Of a stretch of 64,000 nucleotides of DNA, positions 36,109-62,858 are shown in pieces. Made by a program: the position numbers and the translations under genes. The stretch comes from Macrocystis pyrifera. Its lineage: Eukaryota > Sar > Phaeophyceae > Laminariales > Laminariaceae. Under the pieces are notes generated by a model. That model saw only the letters and a list, made by a program, of their open reading frames with translations, was not told the DNA's origin and ran no database searches. The DNA is taken from the NCBI GenBank assembly GCA_031763025.1, contig JASSKH010000009.1, positions 3,162,001 through 3,226,000 of the forward strand. The letters run 5' to 3'. Position 1 is the stretch's first letter; every line of letters starts with the position of its first letter.

Positions 36109-36234
36109 AGCAGCCTTGTTGTTAGATTGCACACAGCAGCCTGCTACAGATGCTATTTCAGCTACCCGGTCGTGAACTGGAAGAGACAATGGCTATGCAC
36201 GCTGGCTCGCTAGCGTGAAGAGAGATGTGAACCA

Positions 36235-39230
36235 ATGAGAATGACTATCATTGGGGACTCACAGGGGACGTTTAAGCCCATCCCCTGTCCCCACGTACGT
36301 GTAAAAATGGCGTTCATTGTGTGTAGGCGTTACTGACCGGGGAGACCAGAATTGAGCACCCAGGGTGTGCACTTCACTTGGGGACTGGAGACGAAGCCTT
36401 ATAGCTACAGGCGCGAATGGTTGGTTTATGGGTGCTCTGCTGCCTCCTTCTGCTGTGCCCAGCAAATCAGGCCCTGCAAGGTTTGTCCGCGAAATATCGA
36501 GAGCCTTTTGCATACCATTTTCCGGGGATAAGAATGGCCGATCTTTCGGAGTCGTTGCTGCTGCTGTCCTAACCGCGAGTGCTGCATCCCATCCCGTTCG
36601 CCGCTTGCTTCGCGTGCTCATAGTCAGGACGGCTTGTTAATTGGCGCAAGTTTCCGTTTGAGAAACGATACTCCACACGATGCAAACTTGATATCTGCTT
36701 GAACGTTTTGTTCTAAATTACGATATCCCGACGAAGTGCGGCCCACAACCCATACATAATATTCAAAATTCAAAATTCGTATTTCATCACTGATTGACGC
36801 CTGTGTCTGTTATTGCACGTATACTGCCTGTACATTCGGTACAGCAGTACGTGTTCGTATACCAGGAATACTTCCTACAGGATCCATATACAACAGCAGC
36901 GGCTTGACCGAATTCTCGTGCGCGACAAGAGCGAACCGGTACCTGAAGGCGGCCAGTTGGAGATGTCACCCGACGCCTTGGCCAGTGTTTTTGGGGACGG
37001 CGCTGGAGAGCAGCATCATCATTGATTCAGTGAAAGCTTCCGCTCAGAGGGCGACGGCTGTGACAGAGTGGCCGGTAGAGGGCGGGTCCTCTTGGACCAG
37101 TACTACAGCAGGCATGGACGCCGCAGGTGACAACAACAGTAGTCCACATATTTTTGTCCAGAGGTACGAGGTAGCAAGATTTACGAGCACGAGAGATACG
37201 AGCACTTCGTCTTGTTTCTATTATTATCCCCGTAAAAACTGAACCCGCTGCGTTTTGGGGGACAGACTTGGAAAAAGCATATCGGACCGGTCATCGATTT
37301 CCACACGAATGATCAACCCGAGGGTAGACTTTTCAGAGAGCAGCCAAAAGCCTGATCTGTAGTGTAGCCAGCTCATATTGGCGGGTGGGAGCCGTGTAAC
37401 CTGCTTGATCTCTACGAGTACGAATTTTTTCCTGTTTGGGATCTATACTGCTGTACAGATCTTCCCAAACATACCATAGCGGACCTACTGTAGATAATTT
37501 ATTACTACTGGAGGTCGTGATCTGTCCGATTTATAATAGGACTTGCCACAAGCAGTAAAAAGAAATCAGTCCGAGATTTAAAGAAAAACAAGTGAATCGG
37601 GAGCCTTTATACGAGTAGAACGCACCCTTTTTTCCAGCCTGAGCATTCCCTTACTTGGAGTGATCTGTCCGATTTATAATAGGACTTGCCACAAGCAGTA
37701 AAAAGAAACCAGTCCGAGATTTAAAGAAAAACAAGTGAATCGGGAGCCTTTATACGAGTAGAACGCACCCTTTTTTCCAGCCTGAGCATTCCCTTACTTG
37801 GAGTTACATGATGTGCGCACAAATAATTTGCGCGAGTACTACAGCAGTATGGCATGAAAAAAGACGTGAGTGAGAGGGTCAACATGTCGACAAAAAAATG
37901 ACTATTGTATAAAGTGATACCAGGTATATCAACAACGTCAACCAGCCCGGGTCGCTGGGGTAGGTAGGTGCGCGACACCTGTTCGGACTCGTGATACTGC
38001 GAGGATAACAGGGTGGGACACAGATTGTATCTTGCCAGGTTTGCACACTTGCTTGGATGCTTGGTAAGGTTTCAATACAAAGTCGTTATTTTGGTTCTGA
38101 CTACAGTAGCATACGGTACCGGCCCTCTGATCAGAAGCAGATCAATTGGTTCAAAGTTATTGATAGATTATTCGTTTGAGAAGCGTGTTCCCTATACAAA
38201 CGTCGGTATCGAGTTTCTTACTTCTCGTTTTTTATACGGCTAAATTTCTTGTGGTGCTCTTTGCGAGGGGAGGAGGTGTCGATACCATGGGGCCCCAAAA
38301 GCCGAAAGGGTTATCGAACGTCAATTGTGCGCGTCTGAGGTGTCGCGCACTTTTCAAAGTTGAATATCAATCACTACTTCAGTCGAATTCGCAGCTGACG
38401 TATTTGTTTCCCCCCGAGCAAGTCTGAGTAGCCGAACAATCAACGACCACGCTGCGTGTCACAGCTCGTTTACGTCTTCTCGTCATAAAAGACGGACGAC
38501 AGCATCTCCAACAGCGAGTACACGAACGAGTACCCGGGGGGGCAAATGAAACGCGCTTCGCAACGGGAGCTATGGGTTAAATTGACAAGACACGATTTGA
38601 ACGTGAAAGTATGGTGAGCTTGAGCTTATGTTTACCAATCCGCCAGAGGATTAAAAAAAAAAAACAAGCGCCAAGTGCTACTTTTATCCGTGAAAATTAT
38701 TTGGGAGACGGGTATTACTCGCGAGTACCCGGGCAATCGGTCAAAGGGATACACCTCACTGGATGAAGTATTTTTTATGGACCAATGCGTAATGTATTAT
38801 TTTCCTTAAATGCATCACGTATTATTATGCTAGCAACACGGCCGTGGTTTACTGTAGCCCGATGTCCCGCGTCCAGTAAATTTGGTAAACTACTGTAGTA
38901 TCGCTGCATTAGTATTGCCATCTCAGTCATCCGGGGGGGAAATAGATACAGTTAACACGCTCCCGTACTGGGACCAAACTACCTCTGCGACAGTGCCTGA
39001 TGCCCACCTACCCCACCCCTCCCTCCCCGTTGTTTGCACGCCCTTCCCTTCCCCTTTCCTTGCCTCCCCTTTTGGGTTCGCTGTAACTTTTCCAGACGGT
39101 CATGGAGGCGCTGTGGGTCAACGGAACCCTGCCGCGCAAGAAGCCCTCTGGCGACATCGAGAGTGTTTCTAAGTCAAAAACGGACAACCCGTCTACCAAG
39201 ACGAGCAAGACCTCATGGCTTATGTTTTGA
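36235..39230 (+). CDS. Plus-strand gene of the TIR element, copy 1 (unrecognised, partly modelled)
   Basis: Tentative model. Exon 1 could be 36,235-36,294 (MRMTIIGDSQGTFKPIPCPH) with a strong CAC|GTACGT donor. It starts inside the inverted repeat. A candidate internal exon from 36,900 follows a CAG acceptor and reads RLDRILVRDK then PEGGQLEMSPDALAS. A probable last exon is 39,096-39,230: after CTTTTCCAG, TVMEALWVNGTLPRKKPSGD to a TGA. The last exon is identical in protein in copy 2 with one synonymous change. Middle exons were not resolved and no known domain is seen. Confidence 0.4.
36259..36621 (-). CDS. Outward-facing open frame at the left end of the TIR element
   Basis: A 120-codon frame starting MSTRSKRRTGWDAALAV runs from inside the element toward its left end and the methyltransferase-like gene. 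It is open in both copies; of four base differences, three are synonymous and one is Phe/Leu. The opposite strand (36,365-36,640) is also open in both copies with only synonymous changes, so which strand is coding is undecided. It may be a real short gene or an upstream exon. Confidence 0.3.
   Translation of the reverse strand: MSTRSKRRTGWDAALAVRTAAATTPKDRPFLSPENGMQKALDISRTNLAGPDLLGTAEGGSRAPINQPFAPVAIRLRLQSPSEVHTLGAQFWSPRSVTPTHNERHFYTYVGTGDGLKRPL
37519..37804. repeat. 143-bp tandem duplication, present only in copy 1
   Basis: The unit beginning GATCTGTCCGATTTATAATA and ending CATTCCCTTACTTGGAGT is present twice in a row with one base difference. Copy 2 has it once (from 45,267). This accounts for most of the length difference between the two copies. 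Confidence 0.9.
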
Positions 39231-39399
39231 CCTTGGCATGATTCATCTATTTTATTAGCTTGCACGCACGCGGTTTTGCATTGTTTCGAATATGATGCAA
39301 GCGAAAACAATTTAAGCAAGTGTTCAACATGGACTGATTGACTCGGTTGACGCAATCTCGGCTTTCAATGTCTTGCAGTTGTGTTGAGATTTACTGTGT

Positions 39400-39455
39400 G
39401 GGGGGGGGGGGGGGTACTGGGTTGGCGTTGGAGGGGAGGGGGGGGGGGGGTAGGG
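39400..39455. repeat. G-rich simple sequence
   Basis: Runs of G broken by TACTGGGTTGGCGTTGGA. The corresponding runs at 47,010-47,070 in copy 2 differ in length, as expected of slippage. Confidence 0.85.
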
Positions 39456-40359
39456 GGGGTAGTGGCTTACATAAAAGAATGATCACTACGTATTATCATG
39501 AATGCTCGGTTGATGTTGCGTCATTGCTTGCAATGATACAGGTACACTGCTTGGCTCGGTCGATGTGTTCTGGCTTGCAAGTCTTGTATTAATAGTATCA
39601 AATTAAGGAGCACGTACTTTCGTAAATTACGATTTCTGCACCACAATGAGTCCTCACTAAGCGCAACAATTTTCGCACGGCAGCCTCTCGGCAATTGTAC
39701 GGAAGTCGAGCCATGTCACAGAATGCCAGGTCGGTCATCTCATACAATGTGATATCGACTCGTACAGTAAATACAAACGGAAATGAACGGAGCAACAAAA
39801 TAACATATACCTGGCATCAATCACTATATAATAACATCAATCCACTCTACCTCGTGCGTACCAGATGGACATACAGAAGCTTACGAGGGGATGAGGGGGG
39901 GAGAGGGGCAGTGGAATTGAAGGAGAGGCCGGTTGAATGTCGTATCTTTATCAGTGCCCCGCCAAATCTCGACACTTTTCCCTTGATCCTCCTCCGGCTA
40001 GTGTATTGGCGACCACGGCGTTCGATCCGATTTCGAGGCAAGGCCCGCTATCTATTATGCACGACGAAATGAAATTTCTGCACCACAATTTAGCCTTGGA
40101 ATAAAAAAAACAGTAAGAATGCCCCTCAAATAACAAGCGTCACATATTACTGCGAGGGTTCGGCGCAGGGGGAGGGGCAGCCGAAAACTTACCAAGCAAG
40201 GCAACAGCAACATAATGAGGGGGGTTGAAAACACGACTGCAACGACCATCACAACTACCTCTGCGTTATGCGATAGTTTTGGGTGTCGACAAAAAATATT
40301 CGTGCCCATCACCACCTACTGCTGTACACGACGACAAATATTAACCAGATCGAAGACAG

Positions 40360-40761
40360 CTAGTCCGTTTTCTCGTCGACACCGGCTTCGCTAGTGCCGG
40401 CCGTAATTTCCACCCCCGCGGCATTGGTTGTGCCTTCCTCAGCCTCCGAATCGGTATCCCGGCCAATACCCGGTGCCATCTGGCGCAACAGCGATTGCAG
40501 ACCAGACTTCTTAATAGAGGGTGGCGGTTTGACGCCACACTTCAAAATATACTCCCGAATGTGAGCAACAGTCAAACTTTGAAATGACGAACCTCTGTAC
40601 CATGGCCAGGCCGAGGTTCGTAGCTAAGGGCACCAGAAATCTCTTGCGCCCTTGACAGTTTGCCTTAACTCCTTCGGTCACTCGTGTAATGACCTCCCTT
40701 TCCGTAGGGAGCCTGTCGATATTCCTTCCTCCATTTGGGCATGGCTCTGTCTCACAATGGG

Positions 40762-40800
<39 letters not shown>

Positions 40801-43800
40801 GGCACAGAAAAAAAAAGACGACAGCAACAACACAGTTGATCACGCCGACTTCTGTGAACAAGTTGTCGTGGCTGTGCAAAGCTATGTTAACCGGAGCGCA
40901 AAGCGTCAGTAAGCAAGCATATTTCTGTGCAGCCGTCACAAGCCATAGTCCAAGTATTCACAAAAAAGACGTAATCACGTCGTCTACCGTAATAATGATA
41001 GTAAACACCACGCCAGGAGCAAACCAATGGGGCGTCTTTTCAGGGAAAACGACACCAGTATAGAGAAAAAAAACTTACTCTTCTTGAAAAAGCCCCGGTG
41101 ACACAGCAGACGCCTCCCACCCCCCCCTCGCCCTTTCAAATTATTGGGGTAAAACGCCCTGGGGTCAGGTTCGGATGTCGTGGCAGGAAGGGGAATGGAG
41201 CTGTTTCCGATGCAAACAAGGTGGGATGCATACAAATGTTGACGTGTCCTGATACATGTCAATGTCTATATGTGTTTCACGCATCACCAAAATAATGGCA
41301 ACATATGAGTTTGAGTGGTCATCACTACTGCTCGGTAGTAGTAGTTGTAGTAGTAGTAGTGACATCGTTTCCGATCGTCACAGCTACGCCGGCTTCAGTC
41401 TTGAACGCGGTGCAGCGGCTCTATCGTGCGTCTCCTGGCCGCTCGCGGCATCGCGACCGTGCTGCGTCCACTCCACTTGGCAGTCCCCGCTGAAGGAGTT
41501 GGCGAACGGGGTGCGTGAAAAGGCACCCTCCCGGGGGCGGGCCGCTCTCCCCAGCATGGCGGAGTATGGAAAAATAAACGGAACTCACAGTACAATACAG
41601 GAACAAGCGCGATATGAACCAACATGTCTAACGCTGTACCTAATGATGTAGTACATGGTGGGTGAGTTGGTGCGTGCGTGGGTGTGTGGGTAGGTAAGTA
41701 TGTGGGCGAGTGGATTCGTGGTTGTGGGTAGTTGCCGTGTTTTTACTGTTTCGTTTACTCCGCTTGTGCTTCCACCACTGGACCATGGTGCTGCTACGTA
41801 CGAACTGGGCACTCATCTACTGCTGCACCTACTGCTGTACTGCTGTAGGACATGGCGGGTGGGTTGATAAGTTGATGGGTGGATGGGTCGATGAGTTGGT
41901 GGGTGGGTGACTGGGTGACTGGGTTCGTAGAGGGGTGAGTGGCTTCGGGGATATGGGTGGCGGCCTTATTTTCTTTTTGTAGCTGTGTTTCGTCCGCTGG
42001 ATGTGCTGCCACTATACCGCACCCGCTGGCATAATGCAGCATACCACTACGCGTATTGCTTCCAAACTACGCCCCGACCGCATGGTAAACGCCCCGGGTC
42101 GCCTTTCCGGAATATCACAAGCTCGAAAGAAAATCACGCCCCCTGAGGCGCCCACTAGCGTACTACGGTACCTTCGTGTGCGCCTTCCCCTCTCGATCAT
42201 CCGGACTGCCTTCCGACGCTTCCGTCCCCGTCTCCGGTTCCCAACCATCCCAAGGGGCGCCCTGCAGTTCGGCAGGGGCTGCACGTACTCTTCTCCCTCT
42301 TCTATTTATTCATCGTCGTCGATAGTAAGTATCTGCATGGAAAAACATCAAGAAGTAACGAAGGGGTTGCATCTCCGCCAATGAGAATATAGAGGCATTT
42401 CGACGTACGTTTGTCAATCGTAGAGGTTACGGTTAGCATGCCCCCGTGAGATTAAGACTTTGCAACCTACGACGTTGCGCGCAGTCCTTCGATGGTCAAA
42501 TCTCTTCCCGGATCACAGATTGTGTATCACGACTAACCTCTGACCCCGCTGTCCTCGCTGACCCCGTCGTCCTCGCTGACCCCGTCGTCCCCGCCGTCCT
42601 GTTGAACCATGCACTTCGCTTCGTCGGTTTCTGCAGCGTACTGTGATCATAGCGTGAGCGATATTGAAGGAGTTTATCTTAATTTGACAAAACGTCTTGC
42701 AACGTTATGTGCAGGCGCGGATCAGTGGGTCTTGACTCCACCATAAACCAAACCTTGCGCGCCTCGGACAGATCATCGATTCCCAGTTGATGATATACTC
42801 TAGTTCTTTCAAGGCAAATCTATTACCGATCCTGTAATATCTACCTCATGTAGCTGGGCCCGAACCATAACATATGAACGAAGTAGCACATGTTTCCTGG
42901 GCTGGGTCTGTGCAATACAGATCCTGCAAAACCTATCACGACGGAAGATGAGGAACTACTAACGGTAGATAGATGATCTACTGCTGTACATAGATCACGA
43001 TCTGTCCGAGGTGTGAAAAGTTGCAGTCGACCTATCGATACACACGACACTCACTGTCTCTAAACGCACGTCACCAGAACGGAGTGCCGACCCCCCTTCT
43101 TTGCCTTCCCCCAGCGTGGCCGCATCGAGCTCAGGTCTCTCCATGGTTCGTCTCATCCCATCCCAACCTTCGATGGTGACTCCATCGTCTCGCGCCCAAG
43201 TTATCTCCAGCCCGGTATGTAGGATATCTGATATGTGATAATCACGAGCAATTTGCCGGGTCGTGGTTCGACACACTGACGGTTAACACTGACACTGCTG
43301 CAACGTCGCGATGTACATTAACACGCCAACCACAACCTCGAAGTGCCCTTCAGCTGCTGCTGCGGTTGGATTTCTTCCGTAGAGACATGAGGATGACGGC
43401 CTACATCTCATCAGTACATACATATACCTGGTCGTACTACAGCAGTCGTCCACACTGAACTCGCACGAGTTACGAGTACTCGATGCTGAGATTGTACTGC
43501 TGTTGTAGTTGAACATGCGGAAAGTTACGATTTTGAACAATCTTGCTACATCTCGGACAACATCCACGTCTTGGTTGCAGTCATTCGCCGAAAAAATGGT
43601 TGGAGCACATTCAGCAGTAAGCTGGCTGTCACACCCAAGAAGAAACGGCGAACGGGAACCTCAAAGGGACGAGGGCGGTGGCCTGACGTCCAAGCCATGC
43701 TGCATCACCGCTTTCGAGGCCGACGTAGTTTTTTTCTATTTTCTCCGCTCACCTTGAACGATTTCCAAAAAATCTTCGTGCACGACGTCGCCTCCGTGGT

Positions 43801-43979
43801 GCTGGATAGTTCCTGACCCTTTGTGGGCTCTGCGGTGTCCTGCTGCGCTGTGTCCGGCACCATCTGTGTGCCGGAATCTGGGGTTTCGTAAAATACCAGA
43901 GGCGGTAATTTCTACAATTTTTTTACACGTACGTGGGGTCAAGCATTCCTTACCAAAAATCTTGAGTGAGTGCCCCAAT
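40360..43979 (-). CDS. Minus-strand gene of the TIR element, copy 1 (SAP-like C-terminus; 5' end cut)
   Basis: Supported exons: 43,753 to ~43,978 (KECLTPRTCKKIVEITASG, ending HEDFLEIVQ plus G); 43,055-43,227 (ILHTGLEITWARDDG and MRRTMERPELDAA), whose phase fits exon 1; a candidate near 42,680-42,800 (IDDLSEARKVWFMVESRP); and the last exon 40,360-40,623, which follows GCCCTTAG and reads SAWPWYRGSSFQ then LTVAHIREYILKCGVKPPPS. The LTVAHIREYIL...KKSGLQSLL stretch resembles a SAP DNA-binding motif. The tail is acidic (GRDTDSEAEEG). In copy 1 the inverted repeat that supplies the ATG is truncated, so this copy probably lacks its start. A T-run length difference at 43,731 between copies falls in the predicted intron, in line with the model. 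Function is unknown; a transposition role is inference. Confidence 0.5.
40768..40797. repeat. (AT)n microsatellite
   Basis: Fifteen or so AT units here. The copy 2 counterpart at 48,366-48,387 is shorter and interrupted (ATACATAT). Confidence 0.95.
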
Positions 43980-43981
43980 CA

Positions 43982-46839
43982 ATGAGAATGACTATCATTG
44001 GGGACTCACAGGGGACGCTTAAGCCCATCCCCTGTCCCCACGTACGTGTAAAAATGGCGTTCATTGTGTGTAGGCGTTACTGACCGGGGAGACCAGAATT
44101 GAGCACCCAGGGTGTGCACTTCACTTGGGGACTGGAGACGAAGCCTTATAGCTACAGGCGCCAATGGCTGGTTTATGGGTGCTCTGCTGCCTCCTTCTGC
44201 TGTGCCCAGCAAATCAGGCCCTGCTAGGTTTGTCCGCGAAATATCGAGAGCCTTTTGCATACCATTTTCCGGGGATAAGAATGGCCGATCTTTCGGAGTC
44301 GTTGCTGCTGCTGTCCTAACCGCGAGTGCTGCATCCCATCCCGTTCGCCGCTTGCTTCGCGTGCTCATAGTCAGGACGGCTTGTTAATTGGCGCAAGTTT
44401 CCGTTTGAGAAACGATACTCCACACGATGCAAACTTGATACCTGCTTGAACGTTTTGTTCCAAATTACGATATCCCGACGAAGTGCGGCCCACAACCCAT
44501 ACATAATATTCAAAATTCAAAATTCGTATTTCATCACTGATTGACGCCTGTGTCTGTTATTGCACGTATACTGCCTGTACATACGGTACAGCAGTACGTG
44601 TTCGTATACCAGGAATACTTCCTACAGGATCCATATACAACAGCAGCGGCTGGACCGAATTCTCGTGAGCGACAAGATCGAACCGGTACCTGAAGGCGGC
44701 CAGTTGGAGATGTCACCTGACGCCTTGGCCAGTGTTTTTGGGGACGGCGCTGGAGAGCAGCATCATCATTGATTCAGTGAAAGCTTCCGCTCAGAGGGCG
44801 ACGGCTGTGACAGAGTGGCCGGTAGGGGGCGGGTCCTCTTGGACCAGTACTACAGCAGGCATGGACGCCGCAGGTGACAACAACAACAATAGTCCACATA
44901 TTTTTGTCCAGAGGTACGAGGTGGCAAGATTTACGAGCACGAGAGATACGAGGACTTCGTCTTGTTTCTATTATTATCCCCGTAAAAACTGAACCCGCCG
45001 CGTTTTGGGGGACAGACTTGGAAAAAGCATATCGGACCGGTCATCGATTTCCACACGAATGATCAACCCGAGGGTAGATTTTTCAGAGAGCAGCCAAAAG
45101 CCTGATCTGTAGTGTAGCCAGCTCATATTGGCGGGTGGGAGCCGTGTAACCTGCTTGATCTCTACGAGTACGAATTTTCTCCTGTTTGGGATCTATACTG
45201 TACAGATCTTCCCAAACATACCATAGCGGACCTATTGTAGATAATCTATTACTACTGGAGGTCGTGATCTGTCCGATTTATAATAGGACTTGCCACAAGC
45301 AGTAAAAAGAAACCAGTCCGAGATTTAAAGAAAAACAAGTGAATCGGGAGCCTTCATACGAGTAGAACGCACCCCTTTTTCCAGCCTGAGCATTCCCTTA
45401 CTTGGAGTTACATGATGTGCGCACAAATAATTTGCGCGAGTACTACAGCAGTATGGCATGAAAAAGGACGTGAGTGAGAGGGTCAACATGTCGACAAAAA
45501 AAATGACTATTGTATAAAGTGATACCAGGTATATCAATAACGTCAACCAGCCCGGGTCGCTGGGGTAGGTGCGCGACACCTGTTCGGACTCGTGATACTG
45601 CGAGGATAACAGGGTGGGACACAGATTGTATCTTGCCAGGTTTGCACACTTGCTTGGATGCTTGGTAAGGTTTCAATAAAAAGTCGTTATTTTGGTTCTG
45701 ACTACAGTAGCATACGTTACCGGCCCTCTGATCAGAAGCAGATCAATTGGTTCAAAGTTATTGATAGATTATTCGTTTGAGAAGCGTGTTCCCTATACAA
45801 ACGTCGGTATCGAGTTTCTTACTTCTCGTTTTTTTTACGGCTAAATTTCTTGTGGTGCTCTTTGCGAGGGGAGGAGGTGTCGATACCATGGGGCCCCAAA
45901 AGCCGAAAGGGTTATCGAACGTCAATTGTGCGCGTCTGACGTGTCGCGCACTTTTCAAAGTTGAATATCAATCACTACTTCAGTCGAATTCGCAGCTGAC
46001 GTATTTGTTTCCCCCCCCGAGCAAGTCTGAGTAGCCCAACAATCAACGACCACGCTGCGTGTCACAGCTCGTTTACGTCTTCTCGTCATAAAAGACGGAC
46101 GACAGCATCTTCAACAGCGAGTTCACGAACGAGTACCCGGGGGGGCAAATGAAACGCGCTTCGCAACGGGAGCTATGGGTTAAATTGACAAGACACGATT
46201 TGAACGTGAAAGTATGGTGAGCTTGAGCTTATGTTTACCAATCCGCCAGAGGATTAAAAAAAAAAAAAAAGTGCCAAGTGCTATTAATACTTTTATCCGT
46301 GAAAATTATTTGGGAGACGGGTATTACTCGCGAGTACCCGGGCAATCGGTCAAAGGGATACACCTCACTGGATGAAGTATTTTTTATGGACCAATGCGTA
46401 ATGTATTATTTTCCTTAAATGCATCACGTATTATTATGCTAGCAACACGGCCGTGGTTTACTGTAGCCCGATGTCCCGCGTCCAGTAAATTTGGTAAACT
46501 ACTGTAGTATCGCTGCATTAGTATTGCCATCTCAGTCATCCGGGGGGGAAATAGATACAGTTAACACGCTCCCGTACTGGGACCAAACTACCTCTGCGAC
46601 AGTCCCTGATGCCCACCTACCCCACCCCTCCCTCCCCCTTGTTTGCATGCCCTTCCCTTCCCCTTTCCTTGCCTCTCCTTTTGGTTTCGCTGTAACTTTT
46701 CCAGACGGTCATGGAGGCGCTGTGGGTCAACGGAACCCTGCCGCGCAAGAAGCCCTCTGGCGACATCGAGAGTGTTTCTAAGTCAAAGACGGACAACCCG
46801 TCTACCAAGACGAGCAAGACCTCATGGCTTATGTTTTGA
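43982..46839 (+). CDS. Plus-strand gene of the TIR element, copy 2 (unrecognised, partly modelled)
   Basis: Counterpart of the copy 1 plus gene: it starts in the inverted repeat (MRMTIIGDS) and ends with the same TVMEALWVNGTLPRKK exon and TGA at 46,839. The internal candidate exon differs by small substitutions, and there is a 3-bp, frame-keeping AAC insertion near 44,880. The middle is unresolved. Confidence 0.4.
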
Positions 46840-47961
46840 CCTTGGCATGATTCATCTCTTTTATTAGCTTGCACGCACGCGGTTTTGCATAGTTTCGAAT
46901 ATGATGCAAGCGAAAACAATTTCAGCAAGTGTTCAACATGGACTGATTGACTCGGTTGACGCAATCTCGGCTTTCAATGTCTTGTAGTTGTGTTGAGATT
47001 TACTGTGTGTGTGGGGGGGGGGGGGGGGGTACTGGGTTGACGTTGGAGGGGAGGGGGGGGGGGGTAGGGAGTGGCTTACATAAAAGAATGATCACTACGT
47101 ATTATCATGAATGCTCGGTTGATGTTGCGTCATTGCTTGCAACGATACAGGTACACTGCTTGGCTCGGTCGATGTGTTCTGGCTTGCAAGTCTTGTATTA
47201 ATAGTATCAAATTAAGGAGCACGTACTTTCGTAAATTATTATTTCTGCACCACAATGAGTCCTCACTAAGCGCAACAATTTTCGCACGGCAGTCTCTCGG
47301 CAATTGTACGGAAGTCGAGCCATGTCACAGAATGCCAGGTCGGTCATCTCATACAATGTGATATCGACCCGTACAGTAAATACAAACGGAAACGAACGGA
47401 GCAACAAAATAACATATACCAATCACTACATAATAACATCAATCCACTCTACCTCGTGCGTACCAGATGGACATACAGAAGCTTACGAGGGGGTGAGGGG
47501 GGGGGAGGGGCAGTGGAATTGAAGGAGAGGCCAGTTGAATGTCGTATCTTTATCAGTGCCCCGCCAAATCTCCACACTCTGCCCTTGATCCTCCTCCGGC
47601 TAATGTATTGGCGACCACGGCGTTCGATCCGATTTCGAGGCAAGGCCCGCTATCTATTATGCACGACGAAATGAAATTTCTGCACCACAATTTAGCCTTG
47701 GAATAAAAAAAAACAGTAAGAATGCCCCTCAAATAACAAGCGTCACATATTACTGCGAGGGTTCGGCGCAGGGGGAGGGGCAGCCGAAAACTTACCAAGC
47801 AAGGCAACAGCAACATAATGAGGGGGGTTGAAACACGACTGCAACGACCATCACAACTACCTCTGCGTTATGCGATAGTTTTGGTTGTCGACAAAAAATA
47901 ATCGTGCCCATCACCACCTACTGCTGTACACGGCGACAAATATTAACCAGATCGAAGACAG

Positions 47962-50900
47962 CTAGTCCGTTTTCTCGTCGACATCGGCTTCGATAGTGCC
48001 CGCCGTAATTTCCACCCCCGCGGCATTGGTTGTGCCTTCCTCAGCCTCCGAATCGGTATCCCGGCCAATACCCGGTGCCATCTGGCGCAACAGCGATTGC
48101 AGACCAGACTTCTTAATAGAGGGTGGCGGTTTGACGCCACACTTCAAAATATACTCCCGAATGTGAGCAACAGTCAAACTTTGAAATGACGAACCTCTGT
48201 ACCATGGCCAGGCCGAGGTTCGTGGCTAAGGGCACCAGAAATCTCTTGCGCCCTTGACAGTTTGCCTTAACTCCTTCAGTCACTCGTGTAATGACCTCCC
48301 TTTCCGTAGGGAGCCTGTCGATATTCCTTCCTCCATTTGGGCATGGCTCTGTCTCACAATGGGACAATATATACATATATATATATACCTGGCACAGAAA
48401 AAAAAAGACGACAGCAACAACACAGTTGATCACGCCGACTTTCTGTGAACAAGTTGTCGTGGCTGTGCAAAGCTATGTTAACCGGAGCGCAAAGCGTCAG
48501 TAAGCAAGCATATTTCTGTGCAGCCGTCACAAGCCATAGTCCAAGTATTCACAAAAAAGACGTAATCACGTCGTCTACCGTAATAATGATAGTAAACGCC
48601 ACGCCAGGAGCAAACCAATGGGGCGCCTTTTCAGGGAAAACGACACCAATATAGAGAAAAAAACTTACTCTTCTTGAAAAAGCCCCGGTGACACAGCAGA
48701 CGCCTCCCACCCCCCCCTCGCCCTTTCAAATTATTGGGGTAAACGCCCCGGGGTCAGGTTGGGATGTCGTGGCAGGAAGGAGAATGGAGCTGTTTCCGAC
48801 GCAAACAAGGTGGGATGCATACAAATGTTGACGTGTCCTGATACATGTCAATGTCTATATGTGTTTCACGCATCACCAAAATAATGGCAACATATGAGTT
48901 TGAGTGGTCATCACTACTGCTCGGTAGTAGTTGTAGTAGTAGTAGTGACATCGTTTCCGATCGTCACAGCTACGCCGGCTTCAGTCTTGAACGCGGTGCA
49001 GCGGCTCTATCGTGCGTCTCCTGGCCGCTCGCGGCACCGCGACCGTGCTGCGTCCACTCCACTTGGCAGTCCCCGCTGAAGGAGTTGGCGAACGGGGTGC
49101 GTGAAAAGGCACCCTCCCGGGGGCGGGCCGCTCTCCCAGCATGGCGGAGTATGGAAAAATAAACGGAACTCACAGGACAATACAGGAACAAGCGCGATAT
49201 GAACCAACATGTCTAACGCTGTACCTAATGATGTAGTACATGGTGGGTGAGTTGGTGCGTGCGTGGGTGTGTGGGTAGGTAAGTATGTGGGCGAGTGGAT
49301 TCGTGGTTGTGGGTAGTTGCCGTGTTTTTACTGTTTTGTTTACTCCGCTTGTGCTTCCACCACTGGACGATGGTGCTGCTACGTACGAACTGGGCACTCA
49401 TCTACTGCTGCACCTACTGCTGTACTGCTGTAGGACATGGCGGGTGGGTTGATAAGTTGATGGGTGGATGGGTCGCTGAGTTGGTGGGTGGGTGACTGGG
49501 TGACTGGGTTCGTCGAGGGGTGAGTGGCTTCGGGGATATGGGTGGCGGCCTTATTTTCTTTTTGTAGCTGTGTTCCGTCCGCTGGATGTGCTGCCACTAT
49601 ACCGCACCCGCTGGCATAATGCAGCATACCACTACGCGTATTGCTTCCAAACTACGCCCCGACCGCATGGTAAACGCCCCGGGTCGCCTTTTCAGGCTCG
49701 GAATATCACAAGCTCGAAAGAAAATCACGCCCCCTGAGGCGTCCACTAGCGTACTACGGTACCTTCGTGTGCGCCTTCCCCTCTCGATCATCCGGACTGC
49801 CTTCCGACGCTTCCGTCCCCGTCTCCGGTTCCCAACCATCCCAAGGGGCGCCCTGCAGTTCGGCAGGGGCTGCACGTACTCTTCTCCCTCTTATATTTAT
49901 TCATCGTCGTCGATAGTAAGTATCTGCATGGAAAAACATCAAGAAGTAACGAAGGGGTTGCATCTCCGCCAATGAGAATATAGAGGCATTTCGACGTACG
50001 TTTGTCAATCGTAGAGGTTACGGTTGGCATGCCCCCGTGAGATTAAGACTTTGCAACCTACGACGTTGCGCGCAGTCCTTCGATGGTCAAATCTCTTCCC
50101 GGATCACAGATTGTGTATCACGACTAACCTCTGACCCCGCTGTCCTCGCTGACCCCGTCGTCCTCGCTGACCCCGTCGTCCCCGCCGTCCTGTTGAACCA
50201 TGCACTTCGCTTCGTCGGTTTCTGCAGCGTACTGTGATCATAGCGTGAGCGATATTGAAGGAGTTTATCTTAATTTGACAAAACGTCTTGCAACGTTCTG
50301 TGCAGGCGCGGATCAGTGGGTCTTGACTCCACCATAAACCAAACCTTGCGCACCTCGGACAGATCATCGATTCCCAGTTGATGATATACTCTAGTTCTTT
50401 CAAGGCAGATCTATTACCGATCTTGTAATATCTACCTCATGTAGCTGGGCCCGAACCATAACATATGAACGAAGTAGCACATGTTTCCTGGGTTGGGTCT
50501 GTGCAATACAGATCCTGCAAAACCTATCACGAGGGAAGATGAGGAACTACTAACGGTAGATAGATGATCTACTGCTGTACATAGATCACGATCTGTCCGA
50601 GGTGTGAAAAGTTGCAGTCGACCTATCGATACACACGACACTCACTGTCTCTAAACGCACGTCACCAGAACGGAGTGCCGACCCCCCTTCTTTGCCTTCC
50701 CCCAGCGTGGCCGAACCGAGCTCAGGTCTCTCCATGGTTCGTCTCATCCCATCCCAACCTTCGATGGTCACTCCATCGTCTCGCGCCCAAGTTATCTCCA
50801 GCCCGGTATGTAGGATATCTGATATGTGATAATCACGTGCAATTTGCCGGTCGAGTCGTGGTTCGACACACTGACGGTTAACACTGACACTGCTGCAACG

Positions 50901-53900
50901 TCGCGATGTACATTAACACGCCAACCACAACCTCGAAGTGCCCTTCAGCTGCTGCTGCGGTTGGATTTCTTCCGTAGAGACATGAGGATGACGGCCTACA
51001 TCTCATCAGTACATACATGTACCTGGTACTACAGCAGTCGTCCACACTGAACTCTGTAGCCAAAAGATACCAAGCCGTGGAGGTTTCAGTGTAATCGCAT
51101 GTGTGAGTGGAGCAGTGGCCGGGGATCCTGTGTGATGTCCCCTAGCCACCTGGCTCGTGGTCCGATGAGGATCACTCCGTGATAATACAAGCTCTAAGAA
51201 CAAGACTTACTGAGTGCGAGGCCAGCGAGACTGGTGGAGTCCCTCGCTGGAAGCCCTCTTGCTGATATCATCTGGCAGAGGCCATAATATCTAGATATTC
51301 GCGGAACTTCTGTTGGAGGAGTTTTCGGCTGCGGAGTATTGGGTCACAGCTGGGAAGGCAGTTGGCCCGTTGGACGGATCGAAACGGCTTGAAGCGCACA
51401 GCAGGGGAGGACGCTCCGGGAGCTGGAGGACGCACAGGTCAGGCGGCAGTTTCTCCGTTATTACAGTAGAGTCCAGGTGGACTGCTGTGGATTATGGCGC
51501 ACACGGCAAGCACGCCGCTGGTGGTAGGGGAGTCTCTGACTCCACCGAAATACGGAGAGGTGTGGACCGAGCAGGCCTCTCGTGTTTTTTACGCAGCGTA
51601 CCTCGATTATGAGGAACGGCTGCAGCTCGCCAACGCTCAGGGGGTGGTTCAGCACTCCAAAGTGAGCATGGGCCAGCTTATCCCCAATTACATTCATCGG
51701 TGTTTTGAGGGATTTTACAAGCATCAGACTACGATGACCGCCTCGGAGTTGTTGGACGCTGTTAGGCAGCACGCTGGTTACACAACCACCAGCAACAGAT
51801 TTGACACCTCGCGGGCGGCAGCGGACTTGCGTCGCGTTCTCTCAATGAGGCGCGATGAAAAGCAGGGCGGTGAAACATCCGTCAAAGACCGCGCGATGAT
51901 GGTAAACTCCGCTATGGAAAAGTATTTTGCGGAGAATCACGCGGTGCATGCCATGTACCGCGCGCAGGACCGTTCGTGGTTGCCCGGACCGGCGGAATTT
52001 GTGAGCATGGCGTTGGTGGATGGCTTATGGCCGTCCGAGTTCAAAAAGTACGTAAAAGGTCAGCTAACGTACGCTGCAGGGTGGAAGAAGGACCCGGCAT
52101 TGGTCATGGACCAAATTTTTTCTGCTGCAGAACAGTGGAAATTCATCGAGGCGTATGGTCGGAAAGATGCTGCAGGGGCAGCTGAACCGCGACGCCAACA
52201 GCAGCAGAAACCGAAACAGCAGCAGTCCGCGAAAAAGTCGTTTGTTCGCGTCTGTTTCGAGTGTGGTGATCCCAACCATTATGTTTCTGATTGCCCAAAA
52301 GCTCGCGGTGGCGCGCACAGCTCCCAGCAGTGGTGGGCGCGGGTCGTCAGGGTATCGCGGGGGCCGCAATGGCGGCCGGGGCAGATTCAACCATGGACGC
52401 GGGCGCGGTGGCCGTGGTGGCAATCAATTGACAGCGGGCGGTGGAACTTCTGCTGTTGCTTCTTCAACTTCTGGTGCGCCAGCGGCAGGAGCCGCTGGGT
52501 CGGGATCTGGTTCGTCTGTTGCCGGCCGAGCTGTATACGTTGGAGGAGCTGGAACATCGGTGGGTGCTGCTGGAGCGAGAACTTCGCCATCCACCGAGCG
52601 GGCGGAGTCAGTGTCTGGTGCTGCTGCAGGGGCGGGTAGCGCCGGAACCGTCTGTATATTCGACGTCTTGGTCGGGGTGGACCGCCGATTCTATTTCTTC
52701 GGCGCCGGCTGTAGGAGGGCAGCCATGGCGTCAGGTGACTCTTGGTACCGACCAGAGTTCAACGGCAGGTGAAGTGCCTGTCGATCGCAGCGCTGAGTGT
52801 TTACGCGCTGATCTCTCTTTGCCAGGGTCGGTTGGTTCGCTGATGGCGCGTGTGATCCTTGATTCGGGGTCGGCGCTCACGTCCATCGGTGTCGGCTTAC
52901 TTCAGCAGCTGTCTTCGCATTTCGGCGGCGCCGATCTGCAAATTCCGTTCGAAAATGGCCCGCAGCAGGCGAAAACCGCTACGGGTGTTTCAGTGATGGT
53001 CACGCACAAAACGGTGCCGATTGCCGTGAGTGTACGGACGCCGTGGGGAGCGGTGAAATTGGAGCCCATCACTTTCGCGGTCATGCCTGGTACAGATAAC
53101 GTCGTTCTGTTTGGCATGGCTACCATGAAAGCTCTTGGCATCGACGTCTACCGTGAAGCTCTGGAGAAGCTTCGCCCTCGCGCAGTGCCGGTATCGACCG
53201 GTGTGGAGACTCCGAGTTACCTTGCGGCGCGCAGAGTGACGGTTTCCGTGCGTGCTTTTCAGACCGAGGCTACGGTGGATGCTCCGGAGGACAAGGCGGT
53301 GGAACATTTGGTCGACCGGGGGCCAGACATGTTCATGGATCCGGAGGCGGAGCGGACGGCCCGAGAACGGGCGTTGGAGGACAGCGTGCAGCAGGCAGAG
53401 CAGAGTGGATTAAGCGTCGGCGGAGCAACCCGTTTGCGCGAAATTTTGGCTCGTCGCGTGGGTGCTTTTCGCCGTGCGCTGTGTGGTGATCCGCCAGCGC
53501 AAGTGGAGCCGATGCGAGTGCAGCTGAAGCAACAGGCGAAGCCTGTCAAGGCAACGCCACGTCGGTACGAACCGACGAAAAGGGACTGGCTCTCGAAGTG
53601 CATTGCTGCTTTGGTGTTTTTTGGCTTTGTCTACCACAACATCCAGGCGGTGTGGGCGAGTCCGGCGATGGCGGTGCCCAAGAAGGACTCTTTCCGTTTG
53701 GTGAGCGACTACTCGGCGGTGAACGCACAGGTGGAGAAGTCCCCGGGCGTCATGCCCAACCATGAAGACATGGGAGATCTGCTGGGGGCGCGTTTCTTCG
53801 GCAAGCTGGACCTACTTCAAGGGTACTGGCAGATGCCTTTGGCTCCGGAGGCGCAAGACGTCTTCACCATGGCGACAAGCGACGGTTTGTTCACGCCTAC

Positions 53901-56900
53901 CCGTGTTCCCCAAGGTGTTTTGAATGCGACTTCTTATTTCCAAGGTGTCATGACTGAAGTGTTGCGTGGTTTGGATTGCAAAGTTTGGGTCGATGACGTT
54001 TTCTTTTTCGCAGACACCGAAGAAGCTCTTCTGCAGCTGCTTGATGACATTCTAGAACGCCTGGAGAATGTTGGACTGTTTGTCGCCGCCCACAAGTGTA
54101 CCTTCTTCTCTCGTGAACTGGTCTGGTGTGGTAAGGTGTATTCCAATGGTGTCGTGTCCCATGACCCCGCTCGAGTGCAAGGTTTAAGTGAAATGCGTCG
54201 TCCCGAAAACGCTGGAGAACTAATGCAATTCTTGCAGGCTGTCAACTGGTTGCGTACATCGTTACCACGTTTAGCGGAAACGGTAGCACCGTTACGTGAT
54301 TTTTTGGAGGAGCTCCTTGTTGGGGCTACACGTCGGACTAAGCGAGTGGCGCGCAATCGTGTCATCAAGGATACCGCGTGGACGGAGGATCGGGTGCGGG
54401 CGTGGAATGCCGCACGGGGTTTGGTGGCGCAAGCAGTGCCGCTTCATCATCCTCGTCCCGGGTGCGTTGTTTTGATGTTTCCTGACGCTTCTGATTTCCA
54501 TTGGGGTAGTTTTCTCACCCAAGTGCCTGAACACGAATTTCGCAGTGGATTGGCGTTGGAAAGCATGTCTCACGAGCCTCTCGGATTTCTGAGTGGTTCG
54601 TTCACAGGTTCGCAGTTGCGCTGGGCGACTGTCGACAAAGAAGGTTTTGCGATCGTTAATACGTTCCGGAGGCTCGAATACCTGCTTTGGGGTGGTGTTC
54701 ATATCTTTACTGATCATCGAAACTTGCAGTACATTTTCAATCCGGAGAAGTGTGTCACGACGGTCACAAAGACCATGGCACAACGCCTAGAGAATTGGAA
54801 GGGTGTTTTAGGACAATACCGCTATGCAATCGAACACATCCCTGGCGATCGAAACTGTTGGGGGGATCTGTTGTCTCGTTGGGTCAAAGTTCCTACGGTG
54901 CCTGTTCGTTCGGTTGCCGTGCACAGCCCATGTAATGCTGACGATTCGCTTCCCGCATTGGATGTGATTCGTGCCTCGCAACAAAGGTCTGTCGCTCGTA
55001 TCGGCGTTGGTGTTCATGAATTTTCGACAACCTTCGGTCAAGCTACCTTGGCCGATGATGGTTTGTTTCGTGTGCGTGTTGGGGTGCGTGACGTCTTGTG
55101 GATTCCGCCGGATGATCTTGCTCTTCAAACTCGTTTGATGGTGTGCGCGCACATGCGCTCGGCTGGTCACCGTGGTGTGGCGCCGACTTTGTTTCGCCTG
55201 AAGGAATATTGTGTTTGGCCTCACATGGATTCTCAGGTTCGCGAATTCGTTCGCCAGTGTTTGCACTGTGTAGACACGCGTGCAGGTGCACTCATTCCTC
55301 GTCCCTACGGAGACACGGTGCATGGTACCGCTCCGGGAGAAGTGGTGCACTTTGATTTTTTGTATGTTGGCCACAGCGGGCCCGAAGGTAGCGATGGCCT
55401 GCCTGAAGAGGATGGTTTCCGATATGTTTTGGTCATCATGGATGATTTGTCCAACTACGTGGCGTTGGAACCGGCCGAGGCTTGTACAGCCGAGGTCACA
55501 GCGAAGCATTTGCTAGCCTGGTGTAAGACTTTGGGGGTGCCGCGTGTGTGGGTGAGTGATACCGCCACGCATTTCAAGAACAGGGTGCTTGCTTTGTTGA
55601 GCGACGCGTTGCACATCGAACATCGTTTTGCTGTCGCTTACACGCCGTGGTCGAACGGTACGTGTGAACGCATGGTAAAAGAGGTGGTACGTGCTCTGCG
55701 TTCCATTCTGTCAGAACAGCGTCGTCAGGTTTCGGAGTGGGTTGATGTTTTGCCGGCCGCTCAGTGGGCCTTGAACACTTCGTTTCGTGAACGTTACCGA
55801 AGCACTCCGTACAGCGTGATGTTTGGGCGTGCTCCGCGTACCGATTTCTCGGCGCTCGTTTCTGAGTCTGATGGCAGGTGGAATGTTGACGTGATGAATG
55901 CTGACTTGTTGCGTGCGAACGTCCGTGAAGTCGTTGCAGAGCAGGAGAGATTTTGCGCCGATATTCGCGCAGCTGTTGCCGTGTCTCGCGACAACAAACG
56001 TAAACAGGCTCAGGGCCAGGTGGTGTTGCCAAAATTTGCGGTTGGTGATTTCGTGTTGTATGCTCGTGTTCGTCGGCAGGGTGTCACACCGAAATTGTTG
56101 TCCACATGGACTGGTCCGTGGCGTGTGGTAGCAGCTGATCATGATCATGTGTACTCAGTTCAGAACATCGTTTCTGGGAAGGTGCATCAAGCTCACGTGG
56201 CTCGTTTACGATTTTATGCGGATGCGACGTTGAACGTCACCGCTGATCTGAAGGATGTTTTCCAACATTCCTTTGCGCAGGGTGAATGCCGCATGAATGC
56301 TGTGGTGCATGTGGCCGAAGATGATGCCAACGAGGTGATTGTCTTGGTCGATTGGGATGGTTTCGAAGCAGAGGAGCGCACGTGGGAGTCTTTGCGGTCG
56401 ATTTATTCTGCTGCGCCTGAATTCGTCGTGAAGGAATTGCGCAAATTACGGATGACCCGTGCGCTCAAGATTAAAATTGCTTCAGAGTTCAGCATTGATT
56501 TGTGATTTGCCGCATGCGATTTCGTCTTGGTTTTTTGGTTTTGTCAAGCTCGTTCGTGTCGAGTGAACTCGCTTTGGGGGTGCTGTAGCCAAAAGATACC
56601 AAGCCGTGGAGGTTTCAGTGTAATCGCATGTGTGAGTGGAGCAGTGGCCGGGGATCCTGTGTGATGTCCCCTAGCCACCTGGCTCGTGGTCCGATGAGGA
56701 TCACTCCGTGATAATACAAGCTCTAAGAACAAGACTTACTGAGTGCGTACATCGTTACCACGTTTAGCGGAAACGGTAGCACCGTTACGTGATTTTTTGG
56801 AGGAGCTCCTTGTTGGGGCTACACGTCGGACTAAGCGAGTGGCGCGCAATCGTGTCATCAAGGATACCGCGTGGACGGAGGATCGGGTGCGGGCGTGGAA

Positions 56901-57897
56901 TGCCGCACGGGGTTTGGTGGCGCAAGCAGTGCCGCTTCATCATCCTCGTCCCGGGTGCGTTGTTTTGATGTTTCCTGACGCTTCTGATTTCCATTGGGGT
57001 AGTTTTCTCACCCAAGTGCCTGAACACGAATTTCGCAGTGGATTGGCGTTGGAAAGCATGTCTCACGAACCACTCGGGTTTTTTGGTTTTGTCAAGCTCG
57101 TTCGTGTCGAGTGAACTCGCTTTGGGGGTGCTGTAGCCAAAAGATACCAAGCCGTGGAGGTTTCAGTGTAATCGCATGTGTGAGTGGAGCAGTGGCCGGG
57201 GATCCTGTGTGATGTCCCCTAGCCACCTGGCTCGTGGTCCGATGAGGATCACTCCGTGATAATACAAGCTCTAAGAACAAGACTTACTGAGTGCGAGGCC
57301 AGCGAGACTGGTGGAGTCCCTCGCTGGAAGCCCTCTTGCTGATATCATCTGGCAGAGGCCATAACTCGCACGAGTTACGAGTACTCGATGCTGAGATTGT
57401 ACTGCTGTTGTAGTTGAACATGCGGAAAGTTACGATTTTGAACAATCTTGCTACATCTCGGACAACGTCCACGTCTTGGTTGCAGTCATTCGCCGAAAAA
57501 ATGGTTGGAGCACATTCAGCAGTAAGCTGGCTGTCACACCCAAGAAGAAACGGCGAACGGGAACCTCAAAGGGACGAGGGCGGTGGCCTGACGTCCAAGC
57601 CATGCTGCATCACCGCTTTCGAGGCCGACGTAGTTTTTTCTATTTTCTCCGCTCACCTTGAACGATTTCCAAAAAATCTTCGTGCACGACGTCGCCTCCG
57701 TGATGCTGGATAGTTCCTGACCCTTTGTGGGCTCTGCGGTGTCCTGCTGCGCTGTGTCCGGCACCATCTGTGTGCCGGAATCTGGGGTTTCGTAAAATAC
57801 CAGAGGCGGTAATTTCTACAATTTTTTTACACGTACGTGGGGTCAAGCATTCCTTACCAAAAATCTTGAGTGAGTCCCCAATGATAGTCATTCTCAT
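47962..57897 (-). CDS. Minus-strand gene of the TIR element, copy 2 (start intact, intron carries an LTR element)
   Basis: The ATG lies in the right inverted repeat (57,897; MRMTIIGDSLKIFGKE). Exon 1 ends at the GTGAGC donor near 57,657. Exon 2 lies around 50,660-50,830, and the last exon, with the SAP-like motif, ends at 47,962. The LTR retroelement falls in intron 1. Relative to copy 1, the first exon has a synonymous His codon change and the last has two residue changes (TIEADVDEKTD against TSEAGVDEKTD). Confidence 0.5.
51055..51286 (+). repeat. 5' LTR
   Basis: 232 bp from TGTAGCCAAAAGATACC to GGCAGAGGCCATA, identical by eye to 57,132-57,363. Confidence 0.9.
51494..52639 (+). CDS. gag: gag of the chromovirus
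   Basis: Capsid-like region followed by a CCHC zinc knuckle (CFECGDPNHYVSDC, around 52,254-52,295) after a Gln/Lys-rich stretch. It overlaps the start of pol in another frame, as is common in this family, where frameshifting or similar recoding is known. Part of an LTR element that looks whole. Confidence 0.85.
   Translation: MAHTASTPLVVGESLTPPKYGEVWTEQASRVFYAAYLDYEERLQLANAQGVVQHSKVSMGQLIPNYIHRCFEGFYKHQTTMTASELLDAVRQHAGYTTTSNRFDTSRAAADLRRVLSMRRDEKQGGETSVKDRAMMVNSAMEKYFAENHAVHAMYRAQDRSWLPGPAEFVSMALVDGLWPSEFKKYVKGQLTYAAGWKKDPALVMDQIFSAAEQWKFIEAYGRKDAAGAAEPRRQQQQKPKQQQSAKKSFVRVCFECGDPNHYVSDCPKARGGAHSSQQWWARVVRVSRGPQWRPGQIQPWTRARWPWWQSIDSGRWNFCCCFFNFWCASGRSRWVGIWFVCCRPSCIRWRSWNIGGCCWSENFAIHRAGGVSVWCCCRGG
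52441..56505 (+). CDS. pol: pol of the chromovirus (protease, RT, RNase H, integrase, chromodomain)
   Basis: Domains in order: aspartic protease (VILDSGSALTSIG, near 52,855); reverse transcriptase (FRLVSDYSAVNAQVEKS, LDLLQGYWQMPL, and a WVDDVFFF catalytic box near 53,990); RNase H (MFPDASDFHWGSF; FTDHRNLQYIF); integrase with an HHCC finger (HMRSAGHRG to CLHCVD) and catalytic core; and a C-terminal chromodomain (VIVLVDWDGFEAEERTWES, near 56,340), which places it among the chromoviruses. The domain order protease-RT-RNase H-integrase is Ty3/gypsy. Confidence 0.95.
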   Translation: MELLLLLLQLLVRQRQEPLGRDLVRLLPAELYTLEELEHRWVLLERELRHPPSGRSQCLVLLQGRVAPEPSVYSTSWSGWTADSISSAPAVGGQPWRQVTLGTDQSSTAGEVPVDRSAECLRADLSLPGSVGSLMARVILDSGSALTSIGVGLLQQLSSHFGGADLQIPFENGPQQAKTATGVSVMVTHKTVPIAVSVRTPWGAVKLEPITFAVMPGTDNVVLFGMATMKALGIDVYREALEKLRPRAVPVSTGVETPSYLAARRVTVSVRAFQTEATVDAPEDKAVEHLVDRGPDMFMDPEAERTARERALEDSVQQAEQSGLSVGGATRLREILARRVGAFRRALCGDPPAQVEPMRVQLKQQAKPVKATPRRYEPTKRDWLSKCIAALVFFGFVYHNIQAVWASPAMAVPKKDSFRLVSDYSAVNAQVEKSPGVMPNHEDMGDLLGARFFGKLDLLQGYWQMPLAPEAQDVFTMATSDGLFTPTRVPQGVLNATSYFQGVMTEVLRGLDCKVWVDDVFFFADTEEALLQLLDDILERLENVGLFVAAHKCTFFSRELVWCGKVYSNGVVSHDPARVQGLSEMRRPENAGELMQFLQAVNWLRTSLPRLAETVAPLRDFLEELLVGATRRTKRVARNRVIKDTAWTEDRVRAWNAARGLVAQAVPLHHPRPGCVVLMFPDASDFHWGSFLTQVPEHEFRSGLALESMSHEPLGFLSGSFTGSQLRWATVDKEGFAIVNTFRRLEYLLWGGVHIFTDHRNLQYIFNPEKCVTTVTKTMAQRLENWKGVLGQYRYAIEHIPGDRNCWGDLLSRWVKVPTVPVRSVAVHSPCNADDSLPALDVIRASQQRSVARIGVGVHEFSTTFGQATLADDGLFRVRVGVRDVLWIPPDDLALQTRLMVCAHMRSAGHRGVAPTLFRLKEYCVWPHMDSQVREFVRQCLHCVDTRAGALIPRPYGDTVHGTAPGEVVHFDFLYVGHSGPEGSDGLPEEDGFRYVLVIMDDLSNYVALEPAEACTAEVTAKHLLAWCKTLGVPRVWVSDTATHFKNRVLALLSDALHIEHRFAVAYTPWSNGTCERMVKEVVRALRSILSEQRRQVSEWVDVLPAAQWALNTSFRERYRSTPYSVMFGRAPRTDFSALVSESDGRWNVDVMNADLLRANVREVVAEQERFCADIRAAVAVSRDNKRKQAQGQVVLPKFAVGDFVLYARVRRQGVTPKLLSTWTGPWRVVAADHDHVYSVQNIVSGKVHQAHVARLRFYADATLNVTADLKDVFQHSFAQGECRMNAVVHVAEDDANEVIVLVDWDGFEAEERTWESLRSIYSAAPEFVVKELRKLRMTRALKIKIASEFSIDL
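56584..57131 (+). mobile_element. Inner LTR and remnant of a related chromovirus copy
   Basis: Begins as an LTR and continues with a short stretch of pol, then the normal sequence before the last LTR. It is a broken, much shortened copy that shares LTR sequence with the main element, probably produced by recombination. Confidence 0.8.
57132..57363 (+). repeat. 3' LTR
   Basis: 232 bp, identical by eye to the 5' LTR at 51,055-51,286. Confidence 0.9.
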
Positions 57898-57924
57898 TGG
57901 CCCCAATGATAGTCATTCTCATTG

Positions 57925-62833: not shown

Positions 62834-62858
62834 ACCCAATGGGAATGACTCATTCCCA
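62834..62858. mobile_element. 25-bp palindrome with perfect 8-bp target duplication
   Basis: The palindrome starts CAATGGGAATGAC and ends TCATTCCCATTG. It is flanked on both sides by AGCAGACC. The arms resemble the ends of the large TIR element (CAATGAGAATGAC). It looks like two transposon ends with nothing left between them. Confidence 0.6.

Follow-up and report, generated by a model that had tools for sequence, protein, structure and literature searches.

Two copies of a large transposon with terminal inverted repeats (TIRs) lie in the 64,000-nucleotide stretch of Macrocystis pyrifera DNA that was analysed (the window), and one of them is inserted in the end of the other copy of itself. The element is a dispersed TIR transposon of the kelp genome with two subfamilies, A and B, and the ends of its TIRs recur in the genome as short palindromic excision scars, which are a more interesting part of the findings than the original pair. 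Both subfamilies are, in our view, likely to consist of large cut-and-paste DNA transposons that are non-autonomous and depend on a transposase acting in trans, one that cuts in the fashion of the P element.

The initial annotation of the window had described a head-to-tail pair of ~7.6-kb units sharing ~30-bp inverted repeats. Self-BLAST of the window bore out two copies in the same orientation, about 98% identical overall (97.6–99.2%) and aligned in three segments: 36230-37661 with 43977-45408 (97.9%), 37660-43462 with 45264-51054 (97.6%) and 43458-43979 with 57363-57882 (99.2%). The inverted repeats were likewise present, as 30-bp TIRs (CAATGAGAATGACTATCATTGGGGACTCAC) at three ends in the window; the element termini are CAATGRGAATGACT, and inverted matches to the 13-base start of the TIR were found at 57887-57899 and 57912-57924. 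The tandem layout, however, gave way to a nested one. At the junction copy 1 ends in ...GTGAGTGCCCCAAT and copy 2 starts with CAATGAGAATGAC; the octamer GCCCCAAT stands immediately 5' of copy 2 and again just 3' of it, where it is followed by GATAGTCATTCTCATTG, the final 17 bp of copy 1, which complete its right TIR. The 8-bp duplication and the split remainder of the TIR place copy 2 within the right TIR of copy 1 and rule out a tandem segmental duplication. As to the length of the units, copy 1 measures 7.75 kb and copy 2 reaches ~7.6 kb only when a ~6.3-kb gypsy-type element is subtracted. This element contains RVT_1, RNase H, Integrase_H2C2 and rve domains and is flanked by the 5-bp duplication AACTC (51050-51054 and 57363-57367). 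It entered copy 2 later, and probably recently, since its direct repeats (51054-51287 and 57131-57364) are identical over 234/234 bp. Copy 1 carries a 145-bp direct duplication of its own (37517-37661/37660-37804). The coordinates are collected in the table.

Table. Features of the nested transposon pair and of the excision scar in the window
Feature	Position	Strand	Basis
Copy 1, subfamily A, 7.75 kb, all except last 17 bp	36233..43979	+	self-BLAST, junction reading
Copy 1 right TIR, last 17 bp, severed by nested copy 2	57908..57924	+	
Copy 1 left 30-bp TIR	36233..36262	+	
Copy 2, nested in copy 1, ~7.6 kb plus ~6.3-kb retrotransposon	43980..57899	+	
Copy 2 left 30-bp TIR	43980..44009	+	
Copy 2 right 30-bp TIR	57870..57899	-	
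Copy 2 left 8-bp target site duplication GCCCCAAT, in right TIR of copy 1	43972..43979	.	
Copy 2 right 8-bp target site duplication GCCCCAAT	57900..57907	.	
Subterminal repeat CCCCACGTACGTGTAAAAA, 57 bp from left end	36289..36307	+	two-end match in L012, same letters in copy 1
Subterminal repeat CCCCACGTACGTGTAAAAA inverted, 58 bp from right end of copy 2	57824..57842	-	
Gypsy-type LTR retrotransposon in copy 2	51055..57362	+	domains, repeats, AACTC duplication
Excision scar CAATGGGAATGACTCATTCCCATTG, two trimmed TIR ends joined	62837..62861	.	
Exact 8-bp duplications AGCAGACC around the scar	62829-62836 and 62862-62869		

The genome searched comprised 537,376,219 bases in 223 contigs, one of which carries the window. 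The exact 13-base start of the TIR occurred 64 + 65 times in it and the reversed pattern 3 + 2 times. Ends were paired using matches of at least 95% (29 of 41 on the left and 29 of 42 on the right, from 40 of 109 and 40 of 107 candidates scored), leaving out one partial match on each side (C189:19.60 Mb and C222:568 kb). A right end was found 6,708–14,163 bp from 26 of the 29 left ends taken, and 18 of these 26 pairs were spaced 7,579–7,773 bp. Among the 19 of 27 element loci that were parsed at both ends (L015, L027, L030, L032-L035 and L040 were left out), the target duplication was an exact 8 bp in 15, matched at 7/8 in two and was absent in two; it was lacking around copy 1 of the window, at L011 and L044, and at L015 at the ends taken. 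The earlier suggestion of a TIR transposon that is not readily recognised was thus upheld within the kelp's own genome by dispersed copies, shared ends and target duplications, and these features exclude a unique segmental duplication. The family may be new; it was not met among the titles and abstract beginnings listed for the literature searched.

Subfamily A, to which the window copies belong, is 7.6 kb long, while members of subfamily B are mostly 8.3–8.5 kb and align to copy 1 at about 78–91%, varying by segment. The TIR of B is CAATGGGAATGACTAGGATTGGGGACTCAC, and its 15-bp start occurred 356 + 378 times in the genome, with 0 occurrences of the control. A diverged third relative at C219 was 65–71% identical in the larger islands. 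Subterminal repeats are paired between the two ends. The repeat CCCCACGTACGTGTAAAAA lay 57/58 bp from both ends in L012 (a 19-bp match between the ends), and in the 13 A copies that were checked its core CACGTACGTG lay 60–63 bp from each end. The counterpart segment in B terminates with CGTGTAAAAA or a close variant of it, and in L026 and L031 the two ends carry it in identical form. A further repeat of 12–15 bp, TCCCGTTCGCCG, was found at 360/339 in one A copy and at 363/329 in one B copy.

Short inverted pairs of TIR starts form palindromes such as TCCTCCAC-CAATGAGAATGACTATC-A-GATAGTCATTCTCATTG-TCCTCCAC (L019). A strict symmetric pattern of this kind matched 93 loci in the genome and a looser one gave 155 + 167 strand matches, with 0 matches for either control; the strict pattern was matched 0 times in IMG/VR and the looser one 0 times in 84,980 prokaryote species. 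From 93 two-strand and 136 one-strand matches, some of them nested or on near-duplicate contigs, we estimate the genome total at roughly 200 scars, one of which lies in the window. We read 69 places, representing 68 distinct scars, which were the first of the roughly 200 by contig order and not a random sample. The flanking duplication was an exact 8 bp in 53 of them, 7/8 in 3, 6 in 1 and at most 5 in 11, while in an all-against-all control a match of 8/8 never occurred and one of 7/8 occurred in 0.04%. A ninth base never lengthened the duplication in the direction tested. The stubs were typed in 72 scars among the looser-pattern matches listed, with two nested readings omitted, a single entry standing for the three near-duplicate contigs and another for the six identical places on C190. 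The longer stub measured 13 nt in 2 scars, 14 in 7, 15 in 18, 16 in 13, 17 in 16, 18 in 12 and 19 in 4, although the search pattern permitted more. Bases common to both stubs were removed from the longer one, a rule that applies to 23 of the 72, in which the stub boundary is ambiguous because the stubs overlap and some stubs would look longer without the rule. The 72 scars comprised 48 distinct junction sequences, with fillers and unequal stubs, and their stubs matched both the A and the B variant of the TIR. The six places on C190 (392842-765330) carry one identical scar, CAATGGGAATGACTCTATGTCATTCCCATTG, within 0.4 Mb, and a larger repeat probably carries them.

Passages of PMC7776569 describe the second-strand cut of the P transposase as lying 17 bp inside a 31-bp TIR, with 17-nt 3' extensions and 8-bp target duplications, and present the long inset cut as an unusual feature of this transposase. 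Such a cut predicts donor ends that each carry 17 nt of the TIR and are trimmed and joined, which matches the scars. We infer that the kelp transposase would nick one strand at the 3' tip of the element and the other about 17–18 nt inside each TIR. Broken ends of the donor, carrying at most 17–18 nt of TIR apiece, would then be trimmed and joined, producing a duplication, a TIR stub, an inverted TIR stub and the second duplication, while the excised element would reinsert by 8-bp staggered strand transfer, sometimes in the TIR of a relative, as in the window pair, or at an octamer used earlier. The longer stubs of 13–19 nt appear to fit a second-strand cut 17 nt inside the TIR, positions 17 and 18 not being separated: the cut may be at 18 rather than 17, since stubs of 18–19 nt were found in 16 of the 72 scars, and of the 32 scars whose stubs reach at least 17 nt, 16 also match base 18, where chance expects a quarter. 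The remainder of the outer TIR beyond copy 2 in the window is exactly 17 bp, equal to the P-type cut distance. This may be a coincidence, since a second nested self-insertion (L039, C223:5.82-5.84 Mb, duplication TCCTCATT) has 1 bp of the outer TIR beyond the inner copy.

Other characters of the P superfamily were found in the kelp element. Compared with Drosophila P and zebrafish Pdre2/THAP9 it has the same 8-bp duplications (exact in 15/19 parsed elements and 53/68 scars), scars compatible with a 17-nt inset, a TIR of 30 bp, within the 13–31 bp of the superfamily (31 bp in the fly, 13 in the fish), and subterminal inverted repeats, which are 11 bp long in Drosophila P and 12 bp in Pdre2 according to passages of PMC7776569 and PMC10983969. 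It differs in its length of 7.6–8.5 kb, against 2.9 kb in the fly, in its brown-algal host and in that no THAP9-like transposase was found. Against the reading stand the 15 of 68 scars without an exact 8-bp duplication, and the nested pairs could reflect target preference, nothing P-specific. Membership of A and B in the P superfamily is unproven, and they may instead be non-autonomous KDZ (Kyakuja-Dileera-Zisupton) elements or members of a new superfamily. P elements in brown algae were not reported in the titles and abstract beginnings of the literature searched, and the terms 'P element', 'P superfamily' and 'footprint' are absent from the main text of the Ectocarpus TE paper (PMC12477816), whose 51 unclassified DNA families could hide such elements.

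A transposase with a THAP domain and an RNase H split by a GTP-binding insertion was found neither in the 136 stop-free frames taken from an A copy and a B copy nor with the profiles PF21787 and PF21789, a test limited by introns and by controls that were silent or almost so. PF21787 had no match in the genome and its positive controls were also silent; PF21789 gave only matches of E 0.6 or worse, and its controls matched once, below the cut-off. The PF21789 match at C215 showed nothing transposase-like by eye, with a kinase-like frame nearby. An autonomous partner element with matching TIRs was not found in the genome places examined. A 28-kb element at C219 was rejected as a partner, as the 7 kb of it that were read contain a diverged relative and, judged by eye, a retrotransposon-like frame. 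A 26.5-kb TIR pair at C192 was rejected because the two ends together make up a single large inverted repeat (98.6% over 970 bp) with mirrored outer flanks, and the transposase at C192 belongs to an independent hAT. This locus (L112/L113/L114, C192:9388476-9414983) is a 26.5-kb inverted arrangement of a diverged relative that resembles a fusion of two broken sister ends.

The initial annotation had also placed two convergent spliced genes in each unit and had taken the differences between the copies to be largely synonymous, suggesting recent constraint. The genes found no support in the codon-phase test, dN/dS, Pfam or the third relative at C219, a largely synonymous nature of the differences was not confirmed, and the comparison with subfamily B gave no codon-phase signal, in a test to which weak constraint is undetectable. 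In an alignment of 6 A and 6 B copies (five of the eleven A copies, L037, L038, L041, L042 and L044, were absent because the search motif missed their TIR variant), 2 of 125 overlapping 120-bp windows reached a chi2 of exactly 7.0 and none exceeded it. In simulations with one window frame and 14% divergence the share above 7.0 was 1.1% for neutral sequence, 6.7% at an omega of 0.5, 44% at 0.2 and 82% at 0.1; with this power, most of the element can be taken to be free of strong constraint, and weak constraint would be missed. The longest listed stop-free frame in copy 1 has 160 aa. Pfam (E 0.05) detected no transposase domain in the 136 frames, in which Gly_rich_2, Collagen, FYRN, HeH, zf-CHCC and DUF4637 were matched once each, and searches for Rfam families (36000-58200) and for tRNAs (the window) gave 0 matches. 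Subfamilies A and B are most likely non-autonomous; judging from the sequences, a gene that evolves fast or has tiny exons may still be present in them. That the element is autonomous, its transposase being spliced from small undetected exons, is improbable. Protein-like frames do occur, for example one of 87 aa at 40360-40623 on the minus strand with an A–B dN/dS of 0.57, from 9 and 15 changes, and HeH/LEM (E 0.023) and FYRN (0.0099) were matched in one member each of the A and B set. However, the median dN/dS of arbitrary common open stretches between A and B was about 0.82 on the plus and 0.81 on the minus strand, with the lowest values resting on few changes; no phase signal was seen, though the test has power against strong constraint only; and the best island between A and the C219 relative gives similar scores for several frames, on either strand, that contain internal stops.

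On host grounds the strongest rival to the P-type reading is a large non-autonomous KDZ element: a KDZ transposase from brown algae would move it and would happen to leave TIR stubs at excision. On the whole we regard this as unlikely. Ectocarpus, according to passages of PMC12477816, has abundant KDZ elements of giant size, and a transposase gene is lacking in several of its giant families. Like the giant KDZ elements of that alga, the kelp elements are large and take part in nested insertions. The 8-bp duplications of A and B fall within the 7–8 bp that define KDZ and are seen in fungal KDZ. Zisupton and one Dileera family duplicate 8 bp, while Kyakuja has 7-bp duplications and CA..TG termini and lacks TIRs (passages of PMC12730594). 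The profile PF18758 had no match in the genome, a null result that weighs little against KDZ because its controls were silent too, and which makes the KDZ domain missing from the kelp element a weak difference. Excision scars are not described in the parts of the KDZ literature searched. Ectocarpus also has giant families without a transposase, which passages of PMC12477816 compare to Pack-MULEs; these resemble the kelp element in being large and presumably moved in trans, but they carry genes, and none could be shown in the kelp element. A non-autonomous hAT element would account for the 8-bp duplications, and yet we give it a slim chance. The hAT terminal rule YARNG is fitted by the CAATG termini, T2 and A7 of the target octamer fit nTnnnnAn, and the relative at C192 contains a hAT transposon, recognised by Dimer_Tnp_hAT with an E of 9.3e-05, over the cut-off. 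However, a hAT element leaves by way of hairpins that open the flank, and no TIR sequence stays behind, whereas the scars retain up to 18–19 nt of it (13–19 nt in the longer stub), and no hAT transposase was found in the 136 frames from an A copy and a B copy. The hAT at C192 is independent: of the 39 other places scored, 32 have their start at query base 47 and the rest no earlier than base 42, a little inward of a boundary at base 40, and its ends differ from the A and B TIRs. It occupies about 656-5288 of L114, and the start of its at least 39 further places in the genome mostly falls at this boundary. It is very improbable that the palindromes are a ~30-bp micro-MITE transposing by itself rather than scars. 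A 28-bp form, CAATGGGAATGACTAGTCATTCCCATTG, does recur in 17 of 50 among the strict-pattern loci listed, but two 16-nt stubs joined at a CTAG microhomology would account for this, and the 48 junctions among 72 scars, the fillers, the unequal stubs and the two TIR variants speak against such an element.

The target octamer of the scars is weakly palindromic, GT(T/G)C|G(A/C)AC, with T at position 2 in 38/68 and A at position 7 in 42/68. The P target consensus is GTCYRGAC and that of hAT is nTnnnnAn; as both fit about equally, the octamer does not discriminate between them. At least one octamer was used twice: in the right flank of L010 (from locus base 7933) the element is followed by CACTCAAA, a B-type scar and CACTCAAA again, and the same octamer also flanks the element on its other side. 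In L021, CGGCAAAC surrounds two consecutive scar-like palindromes. A TIR-like 13-mer (one mismatch allowed) was found at most 200 bp outside 4 of the 14 A elements examined (7 matches in 5,599 bp), and one of these belongs to the terminus of an adjacent B element. Repeated use of octamers and self-nesting may reflect either homing to the element's own ends or reuse of preferred targets.

There is, in our estimate, an even chance that a transposase of the P superfamily, or of an unnamed one sharing the inset cleavage, is at work in brown algae, that the kelp genome archives some 200 of its excisions, and that octamers are reused since old scars and TIRs attract insertions. If so, P-type transposition would occur far outside animals, and finding the signature of the P cut in a stramenopile would mean either that the superfamily is far more widespread or that this chemistry evolved on two occasions. 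The scars would be the junction sequences of many past double-strand breaks in a lineage with little-studied repair, and they would allow a test of transposon homing to its own scars.

Several other repeats were observed in the window. A stretch of ~775 bp (34237-35013) aligns with its own reverse complement at 82%, and repeat arrays are present at 61335-62719, with offsets of about 40 bp, and at 24920-25964. A dispersed repeat of up to ~240 bp (3118-3199, 6133-6448, 13794-14028 and 28544-28853; about 77–86% identity) is possibly an old short element.
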